Notes under the pieces: model-generated
The model's database searches: none
Seen by the model: only the letters and a program-made list of their open reading frames with translations
What the model was told of the DNA's origin: nothing
Part shown: piece by piece, positions 37,247 to 50,569 of the stretch
How the letters are laid out: each line of letters starts with the position of its first letter
Position numbering within the stretch: position 1 is the first letter of the stretch
Source: an uncultured Pelagibacteraceae bacterium
GTDB taxonomy: Bacteria; Pseudomonadota; Alphaproteobacteria; Pelagibacterales; Pelagibacteraceae
Length of the DNA stretch: 50,569 nucleotides
NCBI GenBank assembly: GCA_902514665.1
Contig: CABXRS010000006.1
Span: 1 to 50,569 of the forward strand
Direction: 5' to 3'
Translations under genes and position numbers: made by a program

Positions 37247-38446
37247 TTATTTTTTCTTATATTTAGCTGCTTCTTCTGATCCACCTGTTGCTGATCCTTT
37301 ACTGTAGGAGTGTGCTCCCATCCCAGCTAACTGGCCATCTTTAACAATAAGATATTGATTTCTAATTTCACTACCTTCAAAGAAGCATTCTAAAATTTCT
37401 CTTACTCCATCAGCATACCTTGCTTGAGCAGATAATGAAGTTCCAGAGGTGTGTGGTGTCATTCCATGATTTGGCATAGTTCTCCAGACATGATCATTTG
37501 GAGCTGGTTGTGGAAACCAAACGTCTCCCGCATAACCACTTAGTTGTCCACTTTTTAGAGCTTTTGCAACAGCCTCACGGTTACAAATTTTACCTCTAGC
37601 AGTATTAACAATGTATGCACCTTTTTTCATTTTACTTATCATTGCATCATCAAATAGGTTTTCAGTTTCTGGATGTAGAGGACAATTTATTGTCACCACA
37701 TCACAGACTTTAACCATAGATTCTACAGACTCATGAAAAGTTAAATTTAATTCCTTTTCAACACTGTCTGGTAACTTATGTCTATCAAAGTAATGTAAAT
37801 GTACATCAAAAGGTTTCATCTTTCTAAGCGCATCTAATCCAATACGGCCTGCAGCAACTGTTCCGATATGCATACCTTCAACGTCATAAGATCTTTGCAC
37901 AGCGTCTGCTATATTCCAACCACCTTCATTAACGATCCTATGTTGATTGTGATAATCTCTGACCATTGAAACAATCATCATAACTATATGTTCTGCAACT
38001 GATCTTGAATTACAAAATGTAACTTCCACTACATCAATTTTGTTATCCATTGCTGCTTGTAAATCAACATGGTCTGAACCAATTCCAGCAGTGATAGCCA
38101 TTTTTAAATTTTTTGCTTTAGCTATTCTTTCTTTTGTTAAATAGTAAGGAAAAAATGGTTGAGATATAACTATATCTGCATCAACGATATGTTTGTCAGC
38201 TTCACATCCATCTCCATCTTTGCTATTTGTAACGATAAATTCATGACCATTAGTTTCTAAATATTTTCTTAATCCTAAGCCCCCTGAAACACATCCTAAT
38301 AATTCACCTGGTGTGAAGTCTCTACCTTTTGGACTTGGTAAAGTCATTCCATCTGGATATTTTTCTAATTTAGGAAGATCACTAAGCGGATATGATTTTG
38401 GCATTCCACCTTTAGGATCATCGTATAACACGCACAATATCTTCAT
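37247..38446 (-). CDS. fdh: NAD-dependent formate dehydrogenase (D-2-hydroxyacid dehydrogenase family)
   Basis: A 399-residue enzyme matching the metal-free Pseudomonas/Moraxella-type FDH in length and pattern. Visible signatures are GRDFTPGELLGCVSGGLGLR, QPFFPYYLT, the active-site region ITAGIGSDHVDL, VVEVTFCNSRSVAEH, the cofactor loop GTVAAGRIG, ARGKICNREAV and the catalytic His in MTPHTSGT. It oxidises formate to CO2 with NAD+, closing C1 oxidation fed by GcvTHP. A clear AGGAG lies about 5 nt before the ATG on the minus strand. Confidence 0.95.
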   Translation of the reverse strand: MKILCVLYDDPKGGMPKSYPLSDLPKLEKYPDGMTLPSPKGRDFTPGELLGCVSGGLGLRKYLETNGHEFIVTNSKDGDGCEADKHIVDADIVISQPFFPYYLTKERIAKAKNLKMAITAGIGSDHVDLQAAMDNKIDVVEVTFCNSRSVAEHIVMMIVSMVRDYHNQHRIVNEGGWNIADAVQRSYDVEGMHIGTVAAGRIGLDALRKMKPFDVHLHYFDRHKLPDSVEKELNLTFHESVESMVKVCDVVTINCPLHPETENLFDDAMISKMKKGAYIVNTARGKICNREAVAKALKSGQLSGYAGDVWFPQPAPNDHVWRTMPNHGMTPHTSGTSLSAQARYADGVREILECFFEGSEIRNQYLIVKDGQLAGMGAHSYSKGSATGGSEEAAKYKKK

Positions 38447-38522
38447 TTAATCTCCTGTATGTAATAAATATTAATTTATTTTTTGGCCATCTAACCTTAT
38501 TTTCAAAGGGCTAGCAAACAAA

Positions 38523-38987
38523 TTATTTCTTAGAGGGATAATTTTTTTTTAAGATAAATTTATTAATAATAATTGCAAAAAAAAGAATAATTATTGAACC
38601 AGAAATCACAGGGGTCAATAAGTAGTCCACCGACACACTACCCATTATGACTATAATGGGATTACCACCAGCTGGCGGATGAGTTACATTAAACAATATC
38701 ATAAAACCCACACCAAAACCTACAGCTAAAGGGATATTTAAATATAAAGGTAAAGGTATAAAGTATAAAAAAATCATTCCTACTATTGCAGTAAGAACGT
38801 GACCAAAGAAAACATTTTTTGGTTGGGCGAAAGGACTTTCAGGATATCCATAGAGTAGAACCATTGAAGATCCGAAGGAAGCAATCAAAAATACTCCATA
38901 CTCAGTTTTGTAAGTTAAAAGAGTAAGAATTCCTATTGTAATAATCGAAAAGAGTCCTGCTAAAAATGATTGCTTAAAATTTACCAT
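38523..38987 (-). CDS. HPP-family membrane protein
   Basis: A 154-residue protein with four to five hydrophobic helices and the family motif NVTHPPAGGNP (HPP) between helices three and four, plus SSMVLLYGYPESPFAQP. Some HPP proteins are nitrite transporters in chloroplasts and cyanobacteria; most bacterial members are uncharacterised. It starts 3 nt from the NifU-like stop and is probably cotranscribed with that gene. Confidence 0.85.
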   Translation of the reverse strand: MVNFKQSFLAGLFSIITIGILTLLTYKTEYGVFLIASFGSSMVLLYGYPESPFAQPKNVFFGHVLTAIVGMIFLYFIPLPLYLNIPLAVGFGVGFMILFNVTHPPAGGNPIIVIMGSVSVDYLLTPVISGSIIILFFAIIINKFILKKNYPSKK

Positions 38988-38990
38988 AAT

Positions 38991-39389
38991 TTAATTTGAT
39001 ATAATTTTTTTTAATGCGTTGAAAGGAAGAAGAATACATTCTTTTCTTGATATATTTTTTTGATCAAACAATCTACTTAAAAAAGACCATTTTTTTTCTA
39101 TACTTTTTTGTTCTTTATTAAAAAAAGATTTTGCATAATCACACAGCTCTTTAATTTTATTTTTTTTGGAGTTAATCAAATTTTTTGACAACACACTTGC
39201 AGTAGCCTGACAATAAACACATGATTTTCCCTGGTAGCCAAAATCAACAAGTTTTTCATTTTTTATGATTAACTTAATTTGAATCTCATCACCACATAAA
39301 GGATTTTTAGATTTTGCAACATGAGTGTAGTTTTTGATATTTTTGTTATTTTTAGTATCCGAAGCAATCTCTAAAATTTTTAAATCCAT
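38991..39389 (-). CDS. NifU/IscU-like Fe-S scaffold domain protein
   Basis: A 132-residue single-domain protein with the three scaffold cysteines: Cys32 (NPLCGDEI, with Asp34), Cys57 (GKSCVYCQATAS) and Cys118 (RKECILLPFNAL). These match cluster-assembly cysteines of IscU/SufU/NifU-N, though the surrounding sequence is divergent and an additional Cys60 is present. It may build or carry Fe-S clusters. No cysteine desulfurase or other isc/suf gene is adjacent, which is unusual for such a scaffold. Confidence 0.8.
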   Translation of the reverse strand: MDLKILEIASDTKNNKNIKNYTHVAKSKNPLCGDEIQIKLIIKNEKLVDFGYQGKSCVYCQATASVLSKNLINSKKNKIKELCDYAKSFFNKEQKSIEKKWSFLSRLFDQKNISRKECILLPFNALKKIISN

Positions 39390-39462
39390 GTAAACTTTTA
39401 ATTTTATTTCATATATATCACTGATTTTATATTTAGTTTTAAAATATATTTTTGTTGTAGAA

Positions 39463-39478
39463 AATTCTATTTAGAATT
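39463..39478. promoter_or_regulatory. Perfect 16-bp palindrome upstream of the EamA-amidinotransferase pair
   Basis: AATTCTATTTAGAATT is two 7-bp arms around TT, ending 12 nt before the ATG at 39491. It is operator-like, but the regulator is unknown, and AT-rich palindromes do arise by chance. Confidence 0.45.
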
Positions 39479-39490
39479 AGATTTCGGCAT

Positions 39491-40396
39491 ATGATTGAGC
39501 TTAGAAGTCCCAAAATTGCTATTCCAGTTGTTTTATTTGCAGGCTTACTGTGGTCATTTGGCCCGTTAGTTGTGAGATACATGGATAATCCACAATTAGT
39601 CCCATGGCAGTACATTTTTGGAAGAGGTTTGACTATTTTTATTTTATTAAATCTTTATTTATTTTTCGAAGAAGGAAAAAATTTTTATAAAAATTATTTC
39701 AAAATAGGGTTATCAGGTATGATAGGCGGCTCCGGTTTAGGTGTCGCAATGATCACCTTTATTTATTCAATAACTAACACTAGTGCTGCCGTAACATTAC
39801 TATGTTTGGCTGCAATGCCATTTTTTACTGCATTATTAGCATTTTTGTTTTTAAAAGAAAAAATTTCATTAAATGTTTGGATTTCAATTGTCATAGCAAC
39901 CGCAGGTATTTTAATTATGGCACTTGGTAATACCAGTGAAAAATCTTTAATTGGATTTGTATTTGGTCTTACAGCTTCAATTGGTTTTTCAGTTTTTTCA
40001 GTGACATTGAGGTGGAGACCAGAAACTCCTAAATTTACAACAGTTGCTTTTGCAGGATTTTTTTGTATTGTTTTTTCATCTATAGCAATCGTTACAAATG
40101 ATTTAGTATTTTTTTCATCAAGCTATAATGGAACTTTGTTTTCTTTACATGGAACATTAGTTTGCTTTGGTTTAATTTTATATTCAATAGGCTCAAAAGC
40201 TATTCCAGCAGCAGAACTTACATTGCTATCTTTAACTGAAGTAGTGGGTGGAATATTTTGGGTATGGCTACCATTATTTGGTATCAATGAGGTCCCTACA
40301 ACAAACACAATCATTGGTGGTTTTTTTCTTTTTGTTTCAATAATTTATTACAGTTTGATCATGAGATGGAATAAAAGATACATCGCTCTAAATTAA
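39491..40396 (+). CDS. EamA/DMT-family permease paired with the amidinotransferase
   Basis: A 301-residue protein with ten hydrophobic helices in two EamA repeats (first begins VVLFAGLLWSFGPLVVRYM, second begins SLIGFVFGLTASIGFSVFSV; LTEVVGGIFWVWLPLFGINE is the late family motif). The stop is 3 nt before the amidinotransferase start, indicating a two-gene operon. Transport of arginine, ornithine, glycine or a guanidino product is a reasonable but untested idea. Confidence 0.85.
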   Translation: MIELRSPKIAIPVVLFAGLLWSFGPLVVRYMDNPQLVPWQYIFGRGLTIFILLNLYLFFEEGKNFYKNYFKIGLSGMIGGSGLGVAMITFIYSITNTSAAVTLLCLAAMPFFTALLAFLFLKEKISLNVWISIVIATAGILIMALGNTSEKSLIGFVFGLTASIGFSVFSVTLRWRPETPKFTTVAFAGFFCIVFSSIAIVTNDLVFFSSSYNGTLFSLHGTLVCFGLILYSIGSKAIPAAELTLLSLTEVVGGIFWVWLPLFGINEVPTTNTIIGGFFLFVSIIYYSLIMRWNKRYIALN

Positions 40397-40399
40397 TCT

Positions 40400-41515
40400 A
40401 TGAGTAAAAATAACATTATTGTGAATAGTTGGAATGAATGGGATCCACTGAAACATGTAATTGTTGGAAGAGCAGATGGCACTTGTATTCCGGCCCCTGA
40501 GCCAGCACTTGATGCTAAAGTTCCTGAAGATAGTGATATGCGAGGCCAGTTTGGACCAAGAACTAAAGATACAGTTGATAAAGCCAATCAACTTTTAGAT
40601 GATTTTTCAAATATACTTAAGAAAAGAGGAATTAAAGTTGATCGACCAACACCTTTAGATTTTAATCAAAAAACATCTACTCCTGATTGGGAAGCAGAGA
40701 CCATGTTTGGCTGTATGCCACCAAGAGATGTTTTGTTGACTGTTGGTAATGAAATTTTAGAAGCGACAATGAGCTATCGTTGTCGTTGGTTTGAATATTT
40801 ATGTTACAGACCACTTCTACAAGATTATTACAATCAAGATCCAAATATGAGACATGAGTCTGCACCAAAACCTAGATTGACAGACCTTGACTATAGAAAA
40901 GATTACTTATCAGATAAAATTGGAGTTCAGAAAAGATTAGAATGGACAGAAAAAAAACATTTTGTAACAACAGAGGAAGAACCATTATTTGATGCAGCTG
41001 ATGTATTGAGATTTGGAAAAGATTTAGTAGTGCAACATGGTTTTACTACAAATCTAAAAGGTATTGATTGGTTAAAACGACATTATAAAAATCACAGAGT
41101 TCATGCAGTGAACTTTCCTGGTGATCCATACCCAATCCACATTGATGCAACCTTCACACCAATAAAAGAAGGTTTAATAATAAATAATCCTCAAAGAAGA
41201 CTACCAAAAGAACAAAGAAAATTATTTGAAAATAATGGATGGGAAATAATTGATAGCGCACAACCAGCACACAACGAGCCGCCACCATTATGCTATTCAT
41301 CAACTTGGTTATCTATGAATGTGTTAGTTTTAGATTCTAAAACTGTATGTGTTGAAAAAAGTGAGACTTATCAAGCAGAACAGTTAGATAAACTTGGAAT
41401 GGAAGTTGTACCAGTAGAGCTACGAGATGCTTATGCATTTGGAGGAGGACTTCATTGTTGTACTGCAGATGTATACCGAGAAGGTGAATTAAAGGATTAT
41501 TTTCCTAAACAATAA
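40400..41515 (+). CDS. Glycine (arginine:glycine) amidinotransferase
   Basis: A 371-residue enzyme of the GATM/AGAT family. The catalytic triad is visible: Asp in FDAADVLRFGKDLVVQ, His in YPIHIDATF and Cys353 in GGGLHCCTADV. The N-terminal NSWNEWDPLKHVIVGRADG is typical. It should move the amidino group of arginine to an amine acceptor, in the best-known case glycine, giving guanidinoacetate and ornithine. Bacterial relatives use other acceptors, so the product is not certain. It is cotranscribed with the EamA permease upstream. Confidence 0.88.
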   Translation: MSKNNIIVNSWNEWDPLKHVIVGRADGTCIPAPEPALDAKVPEDSDMRGQFGPRTKDTVDKANQLLDDFSNILKKRGIKVDRPTPLDFNQKTSTPDWEAETMFGCMPPRDVLLTVGNEILEATMSYRCRWFEYLCYRPLLQDYYNQDPNMRHESAPKPRLTDLDYRKDYLSDKIGVQKRLEWTEKKHFVTTEEEPLFDAADVLRFGKDLVVQHGFTTNLKGIDWLKRHYKNHRVHAVNFPGDPYPIHIDATFTPIKEGLIINNPQRRLPKEQRKLFENNGWEIIDSAQPAHNEPPPLCYSSTWLSMNVLVLDSKTVCVEKSETYQAEQLDKLGMEVVPVELRDAYAFGGGLHCCTADVYREGELKDYFPKQ

Positions 41516-41519
41516 GTCT

Positions 41520-41747
41520 CTAATTTGGATTTTGTTTTAAAAATTCTATATATTTTATAACTTCATCAAACTTTTTATCAGGGATATCTTTATAACTTGC
41601 ATTAAATTTAGATTTTACGCAAATTGCTATATGTGCATAAGCATTCCTACCTTTTGGATGATTAGGATGGTCAGGTAATTGTCCATGTAAATAATCGCCA
41701 GCTTCCTGAATAATTTTCCATAATTTAGTAGCATTAATTTTGTTCAT
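41520..41747 (-). CDS. Small conserved-looking protein, function unknown
   Basis: A 75-residue soluble protein starting MNKINATKLWKIIQEAGDYLHG. A middle part reads PDHPNHPKGRNAYAHIA and the end has SYKDIPDKKFDEVIKYI. The last motif looks like the C-terminal part of some phage antirepressor-like (ORF6C-type) proteins, but the match is short. The ATG at 41747 is chosen; the frame could extend to a TTG at 41756. It is convergent with the amidinotransferase (4-nt gap) and divergent from dddK, whose -35 region overlaps its start. Confidence 0.65.
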   Translation of the reverse strand: MNKINATKLWKIIQEAGDYLHGQLPDHPNHPKGRNAYAHIAICVKSKFNASYKDIPDKKFDEVIKYIEFLKQNPN

Positions 41748-41768
41748 AAAAATCAAAATTTATATAAT
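41740..41768 (+). promoter_or_regulatory. Promoter of dddK
   Basis: -35 TTGTTC (41740-41745), 17-nt spacer, perfect -10 TATAAT (41763-41768). The predicted start near 41775 leaves about 5 nt before the ATG at 41780, so the mRNA may be almost leaderless. Confidence 0.5.
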
Positions 41769-41779
41769 CTCAATCTAAT

Positions 41780-42160
41780 ATGATATTTGTAAAAAATTTT
41801 AATTCAATCTCCAATCAGGAATGGAAAACAAGTGAAAAATATCCAGGAGTGAGATGGAAGTTTTTAGTTGATGCAGATTTAGATGGAAGCAAAGGAATTT
41901 CTTGTGGTTTTGCAGAAGTTTTACCGGGTGGAAAATTAACTTTACATCATCATGCGCCAGACGAAATTTATGTTGTAACTAATGGTTCTGCAACTTTAAA
42001 TAAAGATGGTGAACTTGAAGAGATTAAAAAAGGGGATGTAGTTTATATTTCTAATAATGCCAAACATGCACTTAAAAATAATAGTGATGAAACATTTGGA
42101 TTTTATTGGGTTTTCCCTACAGCTCGATTTAAAGAAGTTGAATATTTTTCTGATGAGTAA
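41780..42160 (+). CDS. dddK: Cupin DMSP lyase DddK
   Basis: A 126-residue single-cupin protein. Residues match those described for Pelagibacter DddK at the same positions: metal ligands His56, His58, Glu62 and His96, the catalytic-site Tyr64, and Tyr122. The N-terminus MIFVKNFNSISNQEWKTSEK and the VRWKFLVDADLDGS segment are also DddK-like. It cleaves dimethylsulfoniopropionate to dimethyl sulfide and acrylate. It stands alone between a small unknown gene and the convergent egtD; no acrylate-detoxification gene is adjacent. The identification rests on recalled family residues, not a search. Confidence 0.88.
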   Translation: MIFVKNFNSISNQEWKTSEKYPGVRWKFLVDADLDGSKGISCGFAEVLPGGKLTLHHHAPDEIYVVTNGSATLNKDGELEEIKKGDVVYISNNAKHALKNNSDETFGFYWVFPTARFKEVEYFSDE

Positions 42161-42166
42161 AATTTT

Positions 42167-43081
42167 TTAATTTAGAAAATGAACACTAAAAAGTTTTTTG
42201 TCATCAACCCAAGTTTTATCTAGTTTCCATCCAGCTTTATTAGCTAAGTTTTTGAAGGATTTAATCGTATATTTGTGAGAATTCTCTGTGTGTATCTCTT
42301 CATTTTTTTTAATTAAATAATTTGAACCATTAATCCTAATACGATTTTTTTTTTTTGATTTTAGTCTCATCTCAATTCTTTTTTTTTGTTTATTATAAAC
42401 TGCTAAATGTTTAAAGGAATTCAGATTTATATCTGCACCTAATTCAGTATTGATTCTTAGTAAAATATTTTTATTAAATTTTGCAGTTACCCCTTTTTTG
42501 TCATCATAAGCTGTAATTAGAGTTGGGATGTCTTTTACTAAATCAGCTCCAATGATAATTTTTTTTGCTTTAAATTTTGATTTTAACATTTTTAAAAATT
42601 TAACGGCATCCTTCTCTTCGAAATTACCAATAGTTGATCCTGGAAAAAATATAATTATATTTTCAGTTGAATTGATTTTAAAAGGTAGTTTATTATTATT
42701 TGAAAAGTCATATCCTTTAGGAGTAATAGCTATTTTTGGAAATTTTTTTTTAAAATCTTGAGATATTTTCTTTATATAATCTTCAGAAATATCTAAAGGT
42801 ATATATTTTTTTGGCTTATCTAAACTGTTTAGAAAAATAGATATTTTTTTGAAGTCCCCAGCGCCTGGTTCAATTAAAACTGCTCTCTTTCCTATTTTAT
42901 TAGCTATTTCTATTTTATTATCTTTTAAAATTTTTTTTTCAGTTCTTGTTGGGTAATATGTTTTTAACTTGGTAATTTGTTCAAAAATTTTTGATCCACG
43001 AAAATCATAAAACCATTTAGAACTCAACTCTTTATTTTTTTTACTTAAGCCGAGACTTACTTCTTGTAAAAATGATTTCAT
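42167..43081 (-). CDS. egtD: L-histidine N-alpha-methyltransferase EgtD
   Basis: A 304-residue SAM methyltransferase of the EgtD family. Signatures: YDFRGSKIFEQITKLKTYYPTRTE (YPTRTE at 43-48), SAM loop EPGAGD (71-76), FFPGSTIGNF (145-154), AYDDKKGVTAKFN (Asn that holds histidine), and HTENSHKY with the Glu-x-Ser substrate pair. It trimethylates histidine to hercynine, the precursor of ergothioneine. It overlaps the upstream methyltransferase by 4 nt. Base composition is very AT-rich (two sampled 60-nt lines have 9 and 10 G+C), unlike the two genes upstream. Confidence 0.93.
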   Translation of the reverse strand: MKSFLQEVSLGLSKKNKELSSKWFYDFRGSKIFEQITKLKTYYPTRTEKKILKDNKIEIANKIGKRAVLIEPGAGDFKKISIFLNSLDKPKKYIPLDISEDYIKKISQDFKKKFPKIAITPKGYDFSNNNKLPFKINSTENIIIFFPGSTIGNFEEKDAVKFLKMLKSKFKAKKIIIGADLVKDIPTLITAYDDKKGVTAKFNKNILLRINTELGADINLNSFKHLAVYNKQKKRIEMRLKSKKKNRIRINGSNYLIKKNEEIHTENSHKYTIKSFKNLANKAGWKLDKTWVDDKKLFSVHFLN

Positions 43082-43998
43082 TTTATATTTCGCGTAACTA
43101 AAAGACGACTAATCGGCATTGCAAATCGTCCTTGTTTTTCATTATCTGCGCTCACTTTGGATATTGCGAGCATGTTAGATAGATCTTTAATCATTAATTT
43201 TCTTTTCTCTGGTTTTAAGATAAATGCAGCATAAAAAAATCCTGCAGCAATTTTAGCTACTTTAGTAACTGGTCCTTCCATAGATACAACATTCGTTTCA
43301 ATAGTTACATTTGCTTCTGGAAAAGCATTATGTGCAAGATTACGTAAGCTCTCGGATTCTCGTATCCTTGGATCACCTAAATCAATCTCTCCATAACTAG
43401 GTATTTCTTCTTGTACATAATTATAAATTAAATCGTGTACCTCTTCATAACCAGGTGCTGTATTCATTGGTCCATCAACTAATGCTGCAAACTGACCCCT
43501 AGAAGTTAAAACGCGTTTGACTTCATCTAAAACAGGAGCTATCGGGTCCATTAATGTTAAAGCCCAATGACATAAAACAATATCTATAGAGTTATCATTA
43601 ATTGCTTTCAAATTTTGTGCTTTTGACTCAATAAGATTAACTCCACTATTTTTAAGACGAGTCTTAGCTAATACTAATTCTTCAGGACACATGTCTATAC
43701 CTTTTAAATTTAAATTTTTATTACGATCAAATAAAATTTTTAATAAAGGACCTGACCCACAGGCAAGATCTAATACACTCAAACTTAGGTCATCAGGCAC
43801 AACTTCTCCTAACCATTCATAACTATTACGTCCATTTTTATCACGACAAGAACTTGCACATGCTTCAGTAAATCCAGTATTTTCTTGATGGATTGTTCTT
43901 AAATGATCAACTAAAGCATTACCATTAGGATGATGATTACGAACAAGACTTTGAGTCCAGATCGAATTTAATCCATTTTGATTATTTATGTTTTTCAT
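43078..43998 (-). CDS. Class I SAM methyltransferase inside the ergothioneine gene set
   Basis: A 306-residue methyltransferase with SAM motif LDLACGSG (76-83), an acidic strand-2 end in LKGIDMCPEELVLAK, and IDIVLCHWALTLMDP followed by VLDEVKRVLTSRGQF. A cysteine-bearing segment CASSCRDKNGRNSYEWL lies before the Rossmann core. The substrate is unknown and it does not resemble EgtD. It overlaps both the dioxygenase gene and egtD by 4 nt, so the three are made together. Sampled G+C is about 36%, above the local background. Confidence 0.82.
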   Translation of the reverse strand: MKNINNQNGLNSIWTQSLVRNHHPNGNALVDHLRTIHQENTGFTEACASSCRDKNGRNSYEWLGEVVPDDLSLSVLDLACGSGPLLKILFDRNKNLNLKGIDMCPEELVLAKTRLKNSGVNLIESKAQNLKAINDNSIDIVLCHWALTLMDPIAPVLDEVKRVLTSRGQFAALVDGPMNTAPGYEEVHDLIYNYVQEEIPSYGEIDLGDPRIRESESLRNLAHNAFPEANVTIETNVVSMEGPVTKVAKIAAGFFYAAFILKPEKRKLMIKDLSNMLAISKVSADNEKQGRFAMPISRLLVTRNIK

Positions 43999-44993
43999 GA
44001 TTTATCTTTTACTGGCCAACAAATTGGATTCAGTGGACTAGCAGCTAAGTCTCCTGGTTTGACATTAGGTACAAATTTCTTCCAGTCACCAGAAACCATT
44101 GTAGGTGAATTAATTATTCTCGCTCCATCACGATAATAAGTATTAGCTAGAGCCACGCGACTACGATTTGTACGGTTGCGTGAAGCGGTATGAAAGTTTA
44201 AATTATGATGAAAGCTAACTTCGCCCAGTTCAAAAGCAGTTTCATTTACGCTTACATTATTTTTTGAAAAAACATCTGAGACCCCACGGTCATATCCAGT
44301 TCCAGTCTTTTCAAATGTAACTGAATTAACTAATTTGTGGACATCGAGTGGATAGGCAAAAGAGAGCGGTCCCATCTCAAGAGGAATTGGCTGTGCTGGC
44401 GCCCAAGCAGTAACTACGTCATTGGTATCCAGAGGAAAATGATGATCGTCGAAGTGCCATGGGGTACGACCACAACCAGCTTGTTTAGCTAGTACATTGT
44501 CATGATAAAGTCTAACAGCTGGTACCCCAAGAAGATTCGCTGAAATTTGTCCTAGACGAGGCGATAATACGTAAGCACGAAGAAGTGCGTTATCAGGCCA
44601 AATCATTTCAAGACTAAGGAAACGAGCATGTGCTCCTTTATCTGGATCGACCTTAAATTCTTCTTTTAATAAACTAATTAACTCAGCTCGAAGTTTTAGA
44701 ACAGCTCCAGGTGAAAAAACTTTTTTAAGTTTAATGAAACCATTTTTTTTAAAAAATTCAATTTGATCATTAGTCAAATGATAGGGCTTTGCTAATTCTA
44801 AGACAACTTCATCATCACTGGGTATTGCAATATCTGGTAAAGGATCAGCATTAATAATTTCATTTTTTTTATCATCATTATCTGCAAGACTAACATACCA
44901 GTCCCACCACGCCTGATTATCCTTATCCCATGGTTTACTAATATCTGCAGCATCAGTTAGTTTAGAATTTAAATTGTTATTTGAGTTAGACAT
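43995..44993 (-). CDS. PhyH-like Fe(II)/2-oxoglutarate dioxygenase inside the ergothioneine gene set
   Basis: A 332-residue phytanoyl-CoA-dioxygenase-family protein. The iron triad is His180-Phe-Asp182 (TPWHFDDHHFP) and distal His268, with Arg278 positioned to bind 2-oxoglutarate in FHTASRNRTNRSRVAL. An unusually long N-terminal part (about 70 residues) precedes the catalytic fold. It should hydroxylate, or otherwise oxidise, a small molecule. Coupling to a methyltransferase and egtD suggests a hercynine- or ergothioneine-related substrate. G+C in 44281-44520 is 109/240, far above neighbouring genes, which suggests horizontal transfer. Confidence 0.85.
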   Translation of the reverse strand: MSNSNNNLNSKLTDAADISKPWDKDNQAWWDWYVSLADNDDKKNEIINADPLPDIAIPSDDEVVLELAKPYHLTNDQIEFFKKNGFIKLKKVFSPGAVLKLRAELISLLKEEFKVDPDKGAHARFLSLEMIWPDNALLRAYVLSPRLGQISANLLGVPAVRLYHDNVLAKQAGCGRTPWHFDDHHFPLDTNDVVTAWAPAQPIPLEMGPLSFAYPLDVHKLVNSVTFEKTGTGYDRGVSDVFSKNNVSVNETAFELGEVSFHHNLNFHTASRNRTNRSRVALANTYYRDGARIINSPTMVSGDWKKFVPNVKPGDLAASPLNPICWPVKDKS

Positions 44994-45059
44994 TTATGTT
45001 GTTCTTATAGTTTTATTTTTTTTTAGTAACAGCGCGTTTTGACATGTTATGATTGATTT

Positions 45060-45078
45060 AACTAAAAAAAGTTTAGTT
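45060..45078. other. AT-rich hairpin in the gap between egtB and the dioxygenase gene
   Basis: AACTAAA (45060-45066) pairs with TTTAGTT (45072-45078) around a 5-nt loop. It has a T-run only on the plus strand, where no gene would need it; on the minus strand, in the egtB direction, it could be a weak terminator. The rest of 44994-45105 shows no clear element. Confidence 0.35.
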
Positions 45079-45105
45079 TTTTGTTCTACTCATACAAAAA
45101 TTCTC

Positions 45106-46329
45106 TCATTTAGCAAGTCTTAGTCCAGACATTTGCCATCTTTGATAAGGATAAAAGAAATTACGATATGATTTTCTCATTTGGTTTTTAGGTGTAAGGC
45201 AAGACCCTCCTTTTAATACCATCTGGTTCACCATAAACTTACCATTGTATTCACTGATATCATCATTGTGATATTTAAATCCTGGATAAGGAGAAAAATT
45301 AGAAGAAGTCCACTCCCATACGTGCCCCCAATGTTGATTTAAATCTACACCATTTTTTTTTGAATATGGCTGATATATTTTATTTTCTAAAAAATTCCCA
45401 TGAATATGATCATTAGAAGCAACTTCCCACTCAAATTCTGTTGGAAGTCGTTTATTACTCCATCTTGCAAAAGCGTCACCTTCAAAATAGCTAATATTAC
45501 TTACAGGCGCATTAAGATCTATTTCTTTAATTCCATTTAAAGTGAAGTGATACCATTTACCTTCTTCTTTTTTCCAGTAAAGAGGGAACTGCCAATTTTC
45601 CTGCTGGCATTTTGAAAATCCATCGGACAACCAATATTCACTTTTATTATAACCATCATGATCAATAAACTCGATCCATTCACCATTTGTAACTAACTTG
45701 TTTGATATTTCAAAAGGTAGGATTAAAACCTCATGTTTAGGTCGCTCACAATCGAAAGAGAAATTCTCATCATCTGTACCTACACTTTTAATAGCTTTTT
45801 CAAAACCAACCCACTCTTGTTTAATATCTTCATTTTCAATATCTTTTTTACTTGGATCGTACATGGGACCAGTAGGATTGAAACTTAAACCATGTTGAAG
45901 ATCTGTTAACATTAATTCCTGATGTTGCATTTCATGGTGACAACCCACTTCAACCATATCTAAATTTGAGTTACTCGATTGACATAACTCTTCAATCCTG
46001 TGGTTTATAATTTGCCTATATTCTAGAACCTCATCAATTCCAGGGCGTGAAATTATATTTCGAAGTGATCTTGTATATCTTGGGCCAGCTTTGACGTAAT
46101 AGGAATTAAATAAATAATTATAATCCTCATTGAAATATTTATAATTAGACTTTACTTTGCTTAAAACAAATTTTTCAAAAAACCAAGTAGTATGCGCTAG
46201 ATGCCATTTAATAGGGGAAGCATCTTCCATTGATTGAATATTCATATCCTCTGAACTTAAATTCTCAATAATTTTAATTGATTGATTTCGTGTTTTTTCA
46301 AAAAGACGCTGAATGTCGTTATTATTCAT
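45106..46329 (-). CDS. egtB: Ergothioneine sulfoxide synthase EgtB
   Basis: A 407-residue EgtB. The N-terminal DinB-like domain has IKWHLAHTTWFFEKFV, and the iron motif His-x3-His-x-Glu is at His132-His136-Glu138 (HEMQHQE). The C-terminal FGE-sulfatase-like domain has LPTEFEWEVA, HWGHVWEWTSS, VLKGGSCLTP and WQMSGLRLA. It joins hercynine to a thiol donor (gamma-glutamylcysteine or cysteine) with O2. The ATG at 46329 is preferred; a start at 46365 would add a hydrophobic 12-residue leader not expected here. gshA lies upstream on the same strand and can make gamma-glutamylcysteine. No egtC or egtE is visible. Confidence 0.92.
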   Translation of the reverse strand: MNNNDIQRLFEKTRNQSIKIIENLSSEDMNIQSMEDASPIKWHLAHTTWFFEKFVLSKVKSNYKYFNEDYNYLFNSYYVKAGPRYTRSLRNIISRPGIDEVLEYRQIINHRIEELCQSSNSNLDMVEVGCHHEMQHQELMLTDLQHGLSFNPTGPMYDPSKKDIENEDIKQEWVGFEKAIKSVGTDDENFSFDCERPKHEVLILPFEISNKLVTNGEWIEFIDHDGYNKSEYWLSDGFSKCQQENWQFPLYWKKEEGKWYHFTLNGIKEIDLNAPVSNISYFEGDAFARWSNKRLPTEFEWEVASNDHIHGNFLENKIYQPYSKKNGVDLNQHWGHVWEWTSSNFSPYPGFKYHNDDISEYNGKFMVNQMVLKGGSCLTPKNQMRKSYRNFFYPYQRWQMSGLRLAK

Positions 46330-46402
46330 AAAATTATCTATCCAAATTAACAATAAAGCTAACATACTTCACTTTACAAAACGACGCTGATAATTAAATT
46401 TA

Positions 46403-47725
46403 TTAAGATTGTTGATCAGTTGTTTTTATGTCTTCCACAAAAGTATCTGAACCTGTATTTGTTGGCTCATCAATTGGCTCTGTAGTGGGGTTTAATTCAA
46501 TACCTGCGGGTGTAATTGACTGAGGCATTGCAATGAATTGAGAATCTGGATTTTCAACTGCTGGTCTAACTCTAGATCTGTAGAGACCATAAATTCCAAT
46601 TAAAATATGAAAAAACATTAGAAAAACAAAAAAGCCATTTAGACCTACTATATTCATAAAAATTGAGCATAAAAATGGACCACCAATTGCTCCTAAGCCA
46701 AAAATAAACTGTAAACTTGCACCAGCTGCAACAAATTTTTCCTTAGGAATAAAATCATTTGTATGAGCAAGGATTAATGAGAACATTGGTAAACTACAAA
46801 AAGAAAATAAAATTAAAAAAAAATAAAACCAAAATTTACTTGTTCCCAAACCTTCAGGTAAATACATTTGTGCAGATGAAAAAATTGCACATAATGCAAA
46901 AAAAGCAGCAGCAAAACTCACAAAAATAATTACTTTTCTTCTATCATAAATGTCAGACAATTTTCCTATTGGCCACTGAGAAATTGCACCAGAAATAGCT
47001 AATAAAAACGTAACTAATGAAATATGAAAAATAGAAAAATTCATTCCTGCAGCATACACAGCTAATAATGTGAATAATGCAGATTGTATTGTTCCATAAA
47101 GAAATGAACTCACCATTCCAAAAGGAGATGAAATATAAACCTCTTGAATCGACATAGTTTCAATTTTTTTAAATGTTGGAGGTTTTCTTTTAGTAAGTAA
47201 AATTGGAATTAATGCACCTGATGTTATTATTGATACTAATATAAAAGGTTCAAAATTTATTGGATTACTAAAGTTTAAAAAAAACATTCCAATCCCCATC
47301 GAACCATACAAAATCACCATGTAGATTGATAAGACACTTCCTCTATTTTTATTACTTGCTCTATCGTTTAACCAACTCTCAGCAACTGTATACATAGAGA
47401 CCATGCTGATACCCGTAAGTACTCTTAAAACAAACCAAACAAATGGACTAACGAACACGGCATGAACTAAAATTACTAAAGATGCGATTGACGCAAAAGC
47501 TGCAAAAATTCTAATATGACCAACTCTTGATATTAATTTAGGAATAGTAATTGCACCTATAAAATATCCAACAAAATAACCAGACATCATAAATCCGGTT
47601 GCGGTTAGACTAAACTCTTCTTTTACAGCTCTAACTCCTAGAAGTGACCCTTGAAAGCCGTAAGCAAGCATAATTGCTCCCATACCTAAAAATAAAGCCC
47701 ACGAATTTTTTAATACCTTGTTCAT
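46403..47725 (-). CDS. MFS transporter in the thiol gene region
   Basis: A 440-residue protein with twelve hydrophobic helices. The first half has GYFVGYFIGAITIPKLISRVGHIRIF (the loop 2-3 motif), the second half SQWPIGKLSDIYDRRKV. The C-terminal tail from about 395 is polar, with many Thr, Pro and Asp, and is predicted cytoplasmic. The pattern resembles YcaD-type MFS members, whose substrates are unknown. It lies 73 nt upstream of egtB and 54 nt after the EamA permease, same strand. It could import or export thiols or their precursors, but this is context only. Confidence 0.85.
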   Translation of the reverse strand: MNKVLKNSWALFLGMGAIMLAYGFQGSLLGVRAVKEEFSLTATGFMMSGYFVGYFIGAITIPKLISRVGHIRIFAAFASIASLVILVHAVFVSPFVWFVLRVLTGISMVSMYTVAESWLNDRASNKNRGSVLSIYMVILYGSMGIGMFFLNFSNPINFEPFILVSIITSGALIPILLTKRKPPTFKKIETMSIQEVYISSPFGMVSSFLYGTIQSALFTLLAVYAAGMNFSIFHISLVTFLLAISGAISQWPIGKLSDIYDRRKVIIFVSFAAAFFALCAIFSSAQMYLPEGLGTSKFWFYFFLILFSFCSLPMFSLILAHTNDFIPKEKFVAAGASLQFIFGLGAIGGPFLCSIFMNIVGLNGFFVFLMFFHILIGIYGLYRSRVRPAVENPDSQFIAMPQSITPAGIELNPTTEPIDEPTNTGSDTFVEDIKTTDQQS

Positions 47726-47779
47726 ATGAACCGCTATCTATTTCTGATTTGTGGCCAAATCAAGTTAATTGTAATAGGA

Positions 47780-48640
47780 CTATGTTTTTTTTAGTTTAAG
47801 AAAAGAGTGAATAGCTATTGTCAAAATGATGACAATACCCCCTTGAATTGTTTCAAGACTTGGCTGTTCTTTAATGACCATCCAAACCCAAATTGGCCCG
47901 ATGATTGTCTCTAGCAAAAAGAATAAGTTAACCTCTTCAGCAGGTATAAATCTTGGAGCAATAGTCACCAAAACAAAAGGTATAGCAACACACATTATAC
48001 ACATTAGAGGAACAATTATCAGGTCTTTTCCAACTAAGGCGTAAGTTTCAATAAAGAAAATGGCAAATACTGCAACTAACAGCTTACCAACGACAGCAGC
48101 AGGGACTAGGTTTTTTGTTTTAGCGGATCTAATCGTAACGGCTCCAACTGCTAATCCTAAGGCACAAATAAGTCCCAATAAATCTCCAAAAATATTACCT
48201 AATTGTAAGGAGTCGTAAAATATATATATTGCAGCCATAAAGGTCACTCCAATTGCTGTCCAAGTTTTGCTGTCCGGCATCTCTCTTAAAAATATTGCAC
48301 CTAAAATTGCTGAAAGCATAGGAGCCATAGCAATCATCACCAATGTATTAGCTACATTAGTATTTTGAATAGAAACAACAAAGGCAATATTAGTTATAGT
48401 AAATGTTATTATATAAATTATTCCATGTTGACCACTAGTGAATAGCATTTTAAAAAAATTTGCTTTATAAATAAGTAGCATCCCAACTAACACAGTAAAA
48501 AAAGGAATTATTCCCCTATAAAAAACTAAACTCCAGGTATCAACACTAGCCAATCTTATAAACAAACTGTCAGGAGTGATAAACATCACAGCAACAAAAG
48601 CTAATAAAGAACCTTTTTGCTGGTCATTTAAAGTTCTCAC
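47780..48640 (-). CDS. EamA/DMT-family permease coupled to gshB
   Basis: A 286-residue protein with ten hydrophobic helices in two EamA repeats (opening GSLLAFVAVMFITPDSLFIRL, later ICALGLAVGAVTI and LLETIIGPIWVWMVIKEQPS). It overlaps the gshB stop by 4 nt and is thus part of the gshA-gshB transcript. EamA proteins include exporters of cysteine-pathway metabolites, so movement of glutathione precursors is plausible. It is distinct in sequence from the other two EamA genes in the window. Confidence 0.85.
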   Translation of the reverse strand: MRTLNDQQKGSLLAFVAVMFITPDSLFIRLASVDTWSLVFYRGIIPFFTVLVGMLLIYKANFFKMLFTSGQHGIIYIITFTITNIAFVVSIQNTNVANTLVMIAMAPMLSAILGAIFLREMPDSKTWTAIGVTFMAAIYIFYDSLQLGNIFGDLLGLICALGLAVGAVTIRSAKTKNLVPAAVVGKLLVAVFAIFFIETYALVGKDLIIVPLMCIMCVAIPFVLVTIAPRFIPAEEVNLFFLLETIIGPIWVWMVIKEQPSLETIQGGIVIILTIAIHSFLKLKKT

Positions 48641-49563
48641 GCTCTAAGTTCTTTCCAAAAAATTTTAGCAAGATTTGTACCTGATAAATCGAAATGAGTT
48701 TTTAGTCCTGTTGGAGATGTGACATTAATATCTCCATTAAGTTTTTGATCAATAAAATCTATTCCTGCGAAAAAAATATTTTCTTTTTTTAAATCTTTAG
48801 CAATTAATTTTGATATCTTATTTTCTTTTCTACTAAGTTTGATATTTATAGGTATTGCACCTTTACTCATGTTACTCAAAATTGAACCTTTTTTTGGAAT
48901 TCTAGAGATTGCCCCACAAACTTTACCATTTATTATAAAAACTCTTTTGTCACCTTTGCTAATATTAGGTAAAAATTTTTGTAACATAACATAATCATGT
49001 TTTTTAATAAAATTATTGATAACTTTTGCATCAAATTTCTTCAATAAATGTATGTCGTTTCCACTGTAACTGTGGATGGGTTTTAAAATAACACTACTGT
49101 TTTTTTCGAAAAATTTTTTTATTTCATCGATATTTTTAGTAAAAATAGTGCTTGGCATATATTTTTGATACTTAGCTGAGTATAACTTTTCAGAGACATT
49201 TCTAATAGATGAAGGGTTATTTAATATTTTTACCTTGTGTTTAATAGTATCTAAAATGTACGTAGTTGAAATATATTCAAGATTAAAAGGGGGATCTTGG
49301 CGTATAAGTATAAATTTACATTTAGTGAGTTCTAAACTACATTTTTTTAATATCTTAAAAAATTTTTTTTGAGTATAATCAAATTTAATAAAAAAACCTT
49401 TTGCAATTACTCTTGAATTGATAATTGATAGATTTTTTGGTTCATAATAGAAAATTTTATAATTCTTATTTTGAATTTCATTGCCTAAAAATATACTTGT
49501 GTCCGAAACAGGATTTAATTTTGAAGGATGATTACCTTGAATAGCAGCAATTTTATTTGTCAT
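48637..49563 (-). CDS. gshB: Glutathione synthetase
   Basis: A 308-residue ATP-grasp enzyme close to the E. coli GshB length. Signatures: IRQDPPFNLEYISTTYIL, NNPSSIRNVSEKLY, LKPIHSYSGNDIHLL, DKRVFIINGKVCGAISRIP and INVTSPTGL. It adds glycine to gamma-glutamylcysteine. The ATG at 49563 (11-nt overlap with gshA) is preferred to the one at 49572. Its glycine demand fits the glycine-sensing theme upstream, and its product serves GloA and possibly the GFA protein. Confidence 0.93.
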   Translation of the reverse strand: MTNKIAAIQGNHPSKLNPVSDTSIFLGNEIQNKNYKIFYYEPKNLSIINSRVIAKGFFIKFDYTQKKFFKILKKCSLELTKCKFILIRQDPPFNLEYISTTYILDTIKHKVKILNNPSSIRNVSEKLYSAKYQKYMPSTIFTKNIDEIKKFFEKNSSVILKPIHSYSGNDIHLLKKFDAKVINNFIKKHDYVMLQKFLPNISKGDKRVFIINGKVCGAISRIPKKGSILSNMSKGAIPINIKLSRKENKISKLIAKDLKKENIFFAGIDFIDQKLNGDINVTSPTGLKTHFDLSGTNLAKIFWKELRA

Positions 49564-50569
49564 ATAATTCATCTAAATTTTCATTTTCTGAAAATTTACT
49601 AATCATATGATCTGCGTTTGTTGTCTTGTTATCAATTACTTTTTGCAAGTGATTTAAAAAAATTGTTTCGTTATTTCCTTTTCTGCTTAAAATATCCCTA
49701 TTTTCTAATCCTTTTTTTGATAAATTTAATAGTGTGGATGACCAGTAAAGAAGATCTCTACCCATTAATTGAGTATTAAATCCTTTTTGAGGTGCTTCTA
49801 AGTAGGCATTTATAATCTTATCAGTTTCCCACTTAGAAATAACATCATAAACCTCATCAAGATTACCATATAGCATTCCAATATTAAATGCAGGTCCAGC
49901 ACACAAGCAATCCCAACCACAAGTATCCATAGACCTAAGCTCAATATATTTTTTTAACCTATTCTCGGTAAAGATTGTACTTAAATGTGTTGTAAGATCA
50001 CTCTCTGTAGGTAATCGGTTATTAATTTCTGAAATTTTACCCTCCATAAAATCTCTAAAAATATATTTTCTCCCAGAAATATATTCATCTTTTGCTTGAA
50101 TAAATAAAATAGGAAAATCCATTGTAAATTCTGCATATTTTTCAAAATTTAAATTTTCAAAAAACAATTTTGGAAGTCCTCCTCTAGAGGTATTCTGCCA
50201 AACTTTTGATCGGTACGATAAATAATTACTATTTTTCTTTTCAACTATTGAAGAATTAGCAAATAAAGCAATAGAAATGGGTACAATTGAATTTATAATT
50301 TTAAATTTTTTAACAAAATCTCCCTCTGAACTATAATCTATATTTATTTGTGTCCCACAGGTTCGATACATCATATCTAAACTTAACTCACCACCGAAAG
50401 GCATATCTTGAGTCATTAGTTTATATCTTTGCTTAGGGTTATTTGGGATCTCTTCTAATTTCGAAATAGGATCAAAACCAGCACTGACAATTTCAATATC
50501 TAATTTTTTTGTAACTTGCTTTAGTTCAAATAAATAATCTTGAGACTCCGAACAAGCCTCATGTATATG
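49553..50569 (-). CDS. gshA: Glutamate-cysteine ligase, plant/alphaproteobacterial type (partial)
   Basis: The C-terminal 338 residues of a GCS2-type ligase; the 5' end lies beyond the right edge of the window. Visible are SAGFDPISKLEEIPNNPKQR, YKLMTQDMPFGGELSLDMMY and RTCGTQINIDYSSEGDF (the substrate-site region of this type), then RDFMEG and IELRSMDTCGWD. It forms gamma-glutamylcysteine, the first step to glutathione and also a possible sulfur donor for EgtB. It overlaps gshB by 11 nt. Frame is open without a break from 50569 to the stop at 49553. Confidence 0.92.
   Translation of the reverse strand, partial: HIHEACSESQDYLFELKQVTKKLDIEIVSAGFDPISKLEEIPNNPKQRYKLMTQDMPFGGELSLDMMYRTCGTQINIDYSSEGDFVKKFKIINSIVPISIALFANSSIVEKKNSNYLSYRSKVWQNTSRGGLPKLFFENLNFEKYAEFTMDFPILFIQAKDEYISGRKYIFRDFMEGKISEINNRLPTESDLTTHLSTIFTENRLKKYIELRSMDTCGWDCLCAGPAFNIGMLYGNLDEVYDVISKWETDKIINAYLEAPQKGFNTQLMGRDLLYWSSTLLNLSKKGLENRDILSRKGNNETIFLNHLQKVIDNKTTNADHMISKFSENENLDELYDK

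Follow-up and report, generated by a model that had tools for sequence, protein, structure and literature searches.

Why do genes for a dioxygenase and a methyltransferase lie between egtB and egtD in a marine bacterium? The question is raised by contig CABXRS010000006.1 of assembly GCA_902514665.1, a 50,569-nucleotide stretch of DNA from an uncultured Pelagibacteraceae (SAR11) bacterium, hereafter the window. Its minus strand carries in succession genes for a major facilitator superfamily (MFS) transporter, EgtB, a PhyH-family dioxygenase (PhyH), a class I methyltransferase (MT) and EgtD. According to PMC9516567, histidine trimethylation by the EgtD family is the first step of every known ergothioneine route, and a preliminary description of the locus proposed that the phyH-MT pair leads to an ergothioneine-derived metabolite. 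Our analysis points to another answer. The best reading of the sequence comparisons is that phyH-MT-egtD (the trio) forms a compact, horizontally moving cassette carried by SAR11, a single-amplified genome (SAG) titled Burkholderiales, Rhodobacterales-like and Oleiphilaceae-like bacteria. EgtB is an optional extra outside this cassette, and we give a probability of about one half to the proposal that the cassette makes a hercynine-derived betaine which is oxidised and carries an extra methyl group. Genomes and loci are designated by G and L numbers where they have to be told apart.

Association of the phyH-MT pair with egtD and egtB

The distribution of the pair was analysed across the window's family (SAR11) in a set of 197 genomes, disregarding weak matches to phyH or MT (20-35% identity). 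Close homologues of phyH (at least 81% identity) were found in 25 genomes, and MT was present in the same 25 and in G185, where a contig end cuts the locus. EgtD was detected in 42 of the 197 genomes (37 above the cut-off) and EgtB in 13. In comparisons uncorrected for kinship, EgtD occurred in 24 of the 26 genomes with the pair versus 18 of the 171 others (Fisher p = 2e-17), and EgtB in 3/26 versus 10/171 (p = 0.24). When genus g2 was set aside, egtD was directly next to the pair in all six remaining pair genomes (G000, G140, G143, G040, G060 and G185).

A wide scan covered one genome per species from 84,980 species. The best 80 of 140 relatives were kept as loci, and gene patterns were read within 4.5 kb of phyH, with contig ends cutting some loci. 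MT was present in all of these best 80 loci, egtD in 53 and egtB in 19, directly upstream in 18 and downstream in one (L190). The most frequent pattern was phyH-MT-egtD (29 loci), followed by phyH-MT alone (24) and by the order found in the window, egtB-phyH-MT-egtD (18). Other loci showed a divergent egtD with phyH-MT2-MT (3), where MT2 is a second methyltransferase, phyH-MT2-MT alone (3), egtD-phyH-MT (2) or egtD-phyH-MT-egtB (1). The survey for the window's gene order suggested in the preliminary description therefore recovered that order, but found the trio without egtB to be commoner.

EgtD and EgtB were searched at the genome level for 46 of the 80 loci. EgtD was found in 43 (41 above the cut-off) and EgtB in 17 (15 above the cut-off); in 27, EgtD was present and EgtB was not found. 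Outside this set are 17 g2-type loci, 12 window-type loci, all with egtB in the locus, and five EgtB-free trio loci. The count of 17/46 is thus below the full count because the 12 window-type loci are left out, whereas the locus count of 19/80 has no such cut. The preliminary description would have been contradicted by a pair found mostly without egt genes; the pair goes with egtD in both samples, but not with egtB. Of the substrates it considered, hercynine is the better-supported precursor, and "ergothioneine-derived" is unsupported as a general rule because the pair does not track egtB, although in the window's own EgtB-bearing lineage the pair may act on ergothioneine. Membership of the pair in the ergothioneine pathway proper is likewise rejected as a general rule (EgtB in 3/26, 17/46 and 19/80).

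Two EgtB-free carriers illustrate this independence. In L136 the trio lies next to the MFS gene without egtB, and a search of the corresponding genome, G203, small and probably incomplete, yielded no EgtB. EgtB was also not found in G040, a single contig with a completeness rating of 100% and 2% contamination that carries phyH-MT-egtD. For this genome a split EgtB was considered and rejected: its sole FGE-domain protein (264 aa) lacks a DinB domain, and the glutaredoxin-DinB protein encoded beside egtD lacks the HX3HXE motif. Single absences of EgtB are weak evidence because most EgtB-free carriers are single-cell or metagenome drafts; their number carries the argument. Among the 18 flanking proteins of EgtB-free trios (six loci, only flanks searched), there was no rhodanese or molybdopterin enzyme.

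Layout, upstream element and mobility of the trio

Open reading frames and family scores confirmed the gene order of the preliminary description, with egtB and egtD non-adjacent (Table 1). In the window, egtB and phyH are 112 nt apart, and there is a 4-nt overlap at both the phyH/MT and the MT/egtD junction, as described previously; these overlaps recur in 37/47 and 43/47 loci of order phyH-MT-egtD, respectively. The constant presence of MT beside phyH (80/80 loci) and the recurrence of the overlaps indicate that the pairing is more than chance. The window EgtB carries the HX3HXE iron motif as HEMQHQE. Its start at 46329 is the second methionine of the frame, in agreement with the 407-aa EgtB of G140 and G143. 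It scored below the curated cut-offs for SenA (314 of 420 bits) and for the OvoA N-terminal domain (109.6 of 400 bits).

The element ATGTCAAAACGCGC lies 37-39 bp ahead of phyH; a conserved AT-rich block, which in the window contains TATAAG, comes after it. An exact copy was found in 40 of the 47 SAR11 phyH-MT-egtD loci, both with egtB upstream (17/18) and without it (23/29). The 24 SAR11 loci with phyH-MT alone contain no exact copy, and variants of the element are present in some of them. Its 13-nt core occurs in 3 of the 197 genomes, always upstream of phyH. This element, present with or without egtB, makes phyH-MT-egtD look like one transcription unit even below egtB, and it is a probable promoter or operator of the trio. 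A regulon was rejected, since the 13-nt core occurs at no other place in the 197 genomes (against one occurrence of the reversed control pattern). The possibility of an RNA element ahead of phyH was also discarded; Rfam yielded a single sub-threshold match, elsewhere in 38000-50569.

A quick EgtD tree (57 rows after thinning 83 distinct sequences at 96% identity, with pieces below 230 aa dropped) placed the pair-linked EgtDs in separate lineages, some on long branches: a SAR11 clade, a Rhodobacteraceae type, an Oleiphilaceae type and a further group, which joins the SAG titled Burkholderiales with two proteobacterial metagenome-assembled genomes (MAGs). A single clade of all pair-linked EgtDs was rejected by the approximately unbiased (AU) test (p = 3.5e-5), as was a grouping of SAR11 with Rhodobacteraceae EgtDs (p = 8e-4), the latter picked after the tree was seen. 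Gene orders vary too, egtD following the pair, preceding it or diverging from phyH.

Within SAR11, the trio is found at at least five chromosomal sites. It lies next to a dihydrolipoamide-dehydrogenase-like gene and priA in L139, TauE in L157 (with ribonucleotide reductase two genes on), citrate synthase in L162, an acetyltransferase gene and ftsK in L159 (one gene between), and a DEAD helicase and the glutaredoxin-DinB gene in G040. The MFS gene flanks it on one side in the window and in L136. This MFS gene also lies near an egtD in L111 and is missing next to the trio at the remaining SAR11 sites read; the transporter is a possible exporter or importer of the system, its membership being unproven.

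Two further observations concern transfer. The EgtD of L078, from the SAR11-family genome G048, groups with Burkholderiales-type EgtDs, through either horizontal transfer or a foreign contig. The PhyH of L194 (a MAG titled Thioalkalivibrio) and that of L190 (the SAG titled Burkholderiales) are 76% and 78% identical to SAR11 PhyH; by title these organisms are far from SAR11, so the genes may have been transferred or the titles may be wrong.

Table 1 Features of the window and of related loci (window positions unless a locus or genome is named)
Feature	Position	Strand	Basis or remark
MFS transporter gene, upstream neighbour of egtB	46403-47725	minus	PF07690, 146 bits
egtB, sulfoxide synthase of ergothioneine biosynthesis	45106-46329 (open frame from 46365)	minus	TIGR03440, 520 bits (cut-off 360)
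14-nt element ATGTCAAAACGCGC, probable promoter/operator of phyH-MT-egtD	45032-45045 (38 bp ahead of phyH start)	minus	alignment
phyH, PhyH-family Fe(II)/2-oxoglutarate dioxygenase, 332 aa	43995-44993	minus	PF05721, 50 bits (cut-off 22)
MT, class I S-adenosylmethionine (SAM)-dependent methyltransferase, 306 aa	43078-43998	minus	PF08241, 58 bits
egtD, histidine N-alpha-trimethyltransferase, 304 aa	42167-43081	minus	TIGR03438, 353.5 bits (cut-off 290.9)
Cupin gene	41780-42160	plus	5tfz, E 6e-60
Small frame, 75-78 aa	41523-41756	minus	no Pfam match
Amidinotransferase gene	40400-41515	plus	1jdx, E 2e-87
EamA-type transporter gene	39491-40396
MT2 gene, L195	9040-9879		between phyH and MT; no close named family
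MT2 gene, L196	8953-9792		between phyH and MT; no close named family
MT2 gene, L197	8944-9783		between phyH and MT; no close named family
L078 locus, G048	C24:5321-7430		EgtD groups with Burkholderiales-type EgtDs
EgtD-like gene, L106	7195-8094		between two transporters

Possible product and competing explanations

The window EgtD is related to M. smegmatis EgtD (4pim, E 9e-47). Eight positions of the latter, which we take to form its histidine pocket (Y39, F47, Y56, G161, N166, M252, E282 and S284), are kept in the window protein and in 26/26 SAR11 pair-linked rows. The pocket is kept in every pair-linked group, except for a Met-to-Leu change in three Burkholderiales-type rows. We infer from its family and these residues that the window EgtD makes hercynine from histidine.

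The catalytic residues of PhyH and MT, described as intact in the preliminary account, proved to be so. PhyH belongs to PF05721 by its score and has the HXD...H motif and the 2-oxoglutarate arginine. H180, D182, H268 and R279, presumably the iron and 2-oxoglutarate ligands as judged from the family, are invariant across 24 aligned homologues that are 70-94% identical to the window protein. Its tryptophan-rich N-terminus (QAWWDWY), in which W29, W30, D31, W32 and Y33 are invariant, could hold a trimethylammonium group. The nearest solved sequences are those of SnoK (closest, 4.6e-16 in a profile search), SnoN, PhyH and MysH. SnoK and SnoN are nogalamycin dioxygenases with polyketide substrates; their match begins at residue 71, leaving the tryptophan-rich N-terminus without a counterpart. 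EctD (ectoine hydroxylase) and MysH would be functional analogues, as PhyH-family enzymes oxidising small zwitterions. On this evidence PhyH is a member of neither family: the profile matches are partial and weak (MysH 2e-4, EctD 0.005), the gene context differs, and no clear full-length similarity to EctD was found, the match covering residues 71-158 only. A structure model of PhyH was dropped from pocket analysis (predicted local distance difference test, pLDDT, of 50). Plasmid relatives of PhyH (26 records) are all distant, none above 60% identity. In the three of these 26 neighbourhoods read (Streptomyces 44%, Emticicia 34% and Priestia 31%), no methyltransferase or EgtD was listed nearby in an incomplete gene table.

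The SAM motif of MT (L76, D77, A79, C80, G81, S82 and G83) is invariant in 22 sequences, and its AlphaFold model has a pLDDT of 88.9. Its fold matches are general small-molecule methyltransferases, with S-, N- and C-methyltransferases among them by title. MT matched only general models, and no NCBIfam model scored close to its cut-off.

MT2 (278-280 aa) is encoded between phyH and MT in seven non-SAR11 genomes, and EgtD is present in six of these seven. It shows a distant likeness to MT (27-28% over 117-119 aa) and was not found in the 15 SAR11 genomes tested. A 48% relative of MT2 is encoded elsewhere in G227, G228 and G235, and its neighbourhood was uninformative in G235, the sole one of the three read. 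The possibility that MT2 is an imidazole methyltransferase resembling histamine N-methyltransferase was rejected, with no such sequence match in Pfam, NCBIfam or the PDB; a fold match to histamine methyltransferase was obtained for MT rather than for MT2, and only at rank 44.

Collectively, the cassette interpretation is supported by a pair that tracks EgtD and not EgtB, the varied gene orders, the EgtDs of several lineages, the kept pocket and an element of its own. With EgtB missing in most carriers examined and a dioxygenase and a methyltransferase left beside EgtD, the simplest product would be a hydroxy- or methoxy-hercynine. EgtD would trimethylate histidine to hercynine, PhyH would oxidise it, most likely by carbon hydroxylation and perhaps at the beta carbon beside the imidazole, and MT would add one more methyl, for which the new hydroxyl is the most likely acceptor and the imidazole the alternative. 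A further methyl would come from MT2 in carriers of the Rhodobacterales-like kind and in some others. In the window's lineage, the upstream EgtB would use the same hercynine for ergothioneine. The substrate, position and order of steps proposed for the pair are inferred, and a compatible solute, an antioxidant and a signal are all candidates for the product's role.

Compared with ergothioneine biosynthesis, in which EgtD acts with EgtB, EanB or the metallopterin enzyme MES, the cassette has the same first enzyme and, in the window's lineage, EgtB too. It differs in that no sulfur-inserting enzyme was found in most carriers examined (EgtB searched), and that a dioxygenase and a methyltransferase occur instead. 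According to PMC9516567, a histidine methyltransferase is encoded without any known sulfur-inserting enzyme in about 80 genomes, and MES accounts for 55 of these. Somewhat more tentatively, hercynine would be the branch point of a second pathway, and a mobile cassette would contribute a new hydroxylated or methoxylated hercynine to the dissolved metabolites of the ocean and explain part of the EgtDs without a sulfur-inserting partner. If true, hercynine has another fate in addition to ergothioneine, a function can be given to some of the EgtDs that occur without EgtB, and defined exact masses become searchable in existing marine metabolomes. A dedicated gene set kept at several sites in relatives of a host with a small genome (970,700 bases, rated 81% complete) points to a compound worth its cost.

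Several observations weigh against this proposal, and some of them favour a pair acting on a non-histidine substrate (polyketide-like, a sugar or another betaine), with egtD nearby through genome packing or joint transfer. EgtD is absent within 4.5 kb in 27/80 loci, and it was not found even at E 0.01 in 3/46 genomes, the SAR11 drafts G209 and G214 and the Rhodosalinus draft G240. In G214, a fragment of EgtB lies where a contig ends; in the order of G240, PhyH is rare and patchy (3 of 292 sampled genomes, two of them already among the wide-scan loci). The closest solved dioxygenases, SnoK, SnoN, PhyH and MysH, act on other molecules. Genus g2 provides 18 of the 24 co-occurrences of the pair with EgtD, and its EgtD is a different protein (41-43% identical to the window's in aligned rows) with glycine at the pocket methionine, encoded on a contig other than that of the pair and present in seven g2 genomes without it. 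The EgtB-free carriers are almost without exception SAGs or MAGs that are incomplete, and the genome-wide search for sulfur-inserting enzymes covered EgtB, so that some carriers may have EanB or MES. Finally, the general fold of MT and the poor PhyH model leave the chemistry of the pair unconstrained. An unrelated substrate is nevertheless unlikely: EgtDs of several lineages lie beside the pair in several orders, EgtD is present in 43/46 genomes and the MT/egtD overlap recurs in 43/47 loci.

Tailoring of ergothioneine, or of the sulfoxide intermediate, produced via EgtB was the headline of the preliminary description and would fit the loci with egtB directly upstream (18/80) or downstream (L190); EanB or MES could moreover stand in for EgtB elsewhere. 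We consider it improbable, given EgtB in just 3/26 and 17/46 pair genomes and the single-contig G040 in which none was found. PMC9516567 moreover places EanB and MES mostly or exclusively in anaerobes. Equally improbable is a reverse order, in which PhyH and MT would modify histidine first and EgtD would trimethylate last to give the same kind of betaine: the operon order phyH-MT-egtD (47/80 loci) suits it, and the glycine of g2 EgtDs would accommodate a bulkier ring or side chain, but this change occurs irrespective of the pair and the 26 SAR11 pair-linked EgtDs keep the histidine pocket.

Compounds related to the proposed hercynine derivative exist. 6-Methylhercynine from the deep-sea sponge Characella pachastrelloides is an extra-methylated hercynine found at sea (PMC8779493). 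Its methyl group is on imidazole C-2, and the authors discuss radical SAM methylation with no genes known; any link to the cassette is hypothetical. Hercynine itself was found in 9 of 10 cyanobacterial strains (PMC3826126). The open-access literature yielded no report joining EgtD with a phytanoyl-CoA dioxygenase or ergothioneine with SAR11, subscription literature being mostly outside this scope. Pelagibacter and ergothioneine came up together in a soil study, and hydroxy- or methyl-hercynine in a conference volume besides the sponge paper. The cassette was not described in the literature searched, and an earlier description elsewhere is possible.

Neighbouring genes and EgtD-like proteins with an altered pocket

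The gene convergent with and adjoining egtD encodes a cupin that is by sequence the dimethylsulfoniopropionate (DMSP) lyase DddK, and a DddK-like cupin is found at the same place in most window-type loci. Beyond it, a small frame recurs beside egt or phyH-MT genes in L111 and L151. An amidinotransferase of the arginine:glycine amidinotransferase family is encoded beside an EamA-type transporter, and these two genes also occur together in L145 and L151.

EgtD-like proteins of genera g2 and g3 without an adjacent pair have glycine (14/15) or asparagine (1/15) where other EgtDs have methionine or leucine, and with this altered pocket they possibly use a different substrate. The EgtD-like gene of L106 is flanked on one side by an OpuAC-type betaine transporter and on the other by a further ABC transporter.

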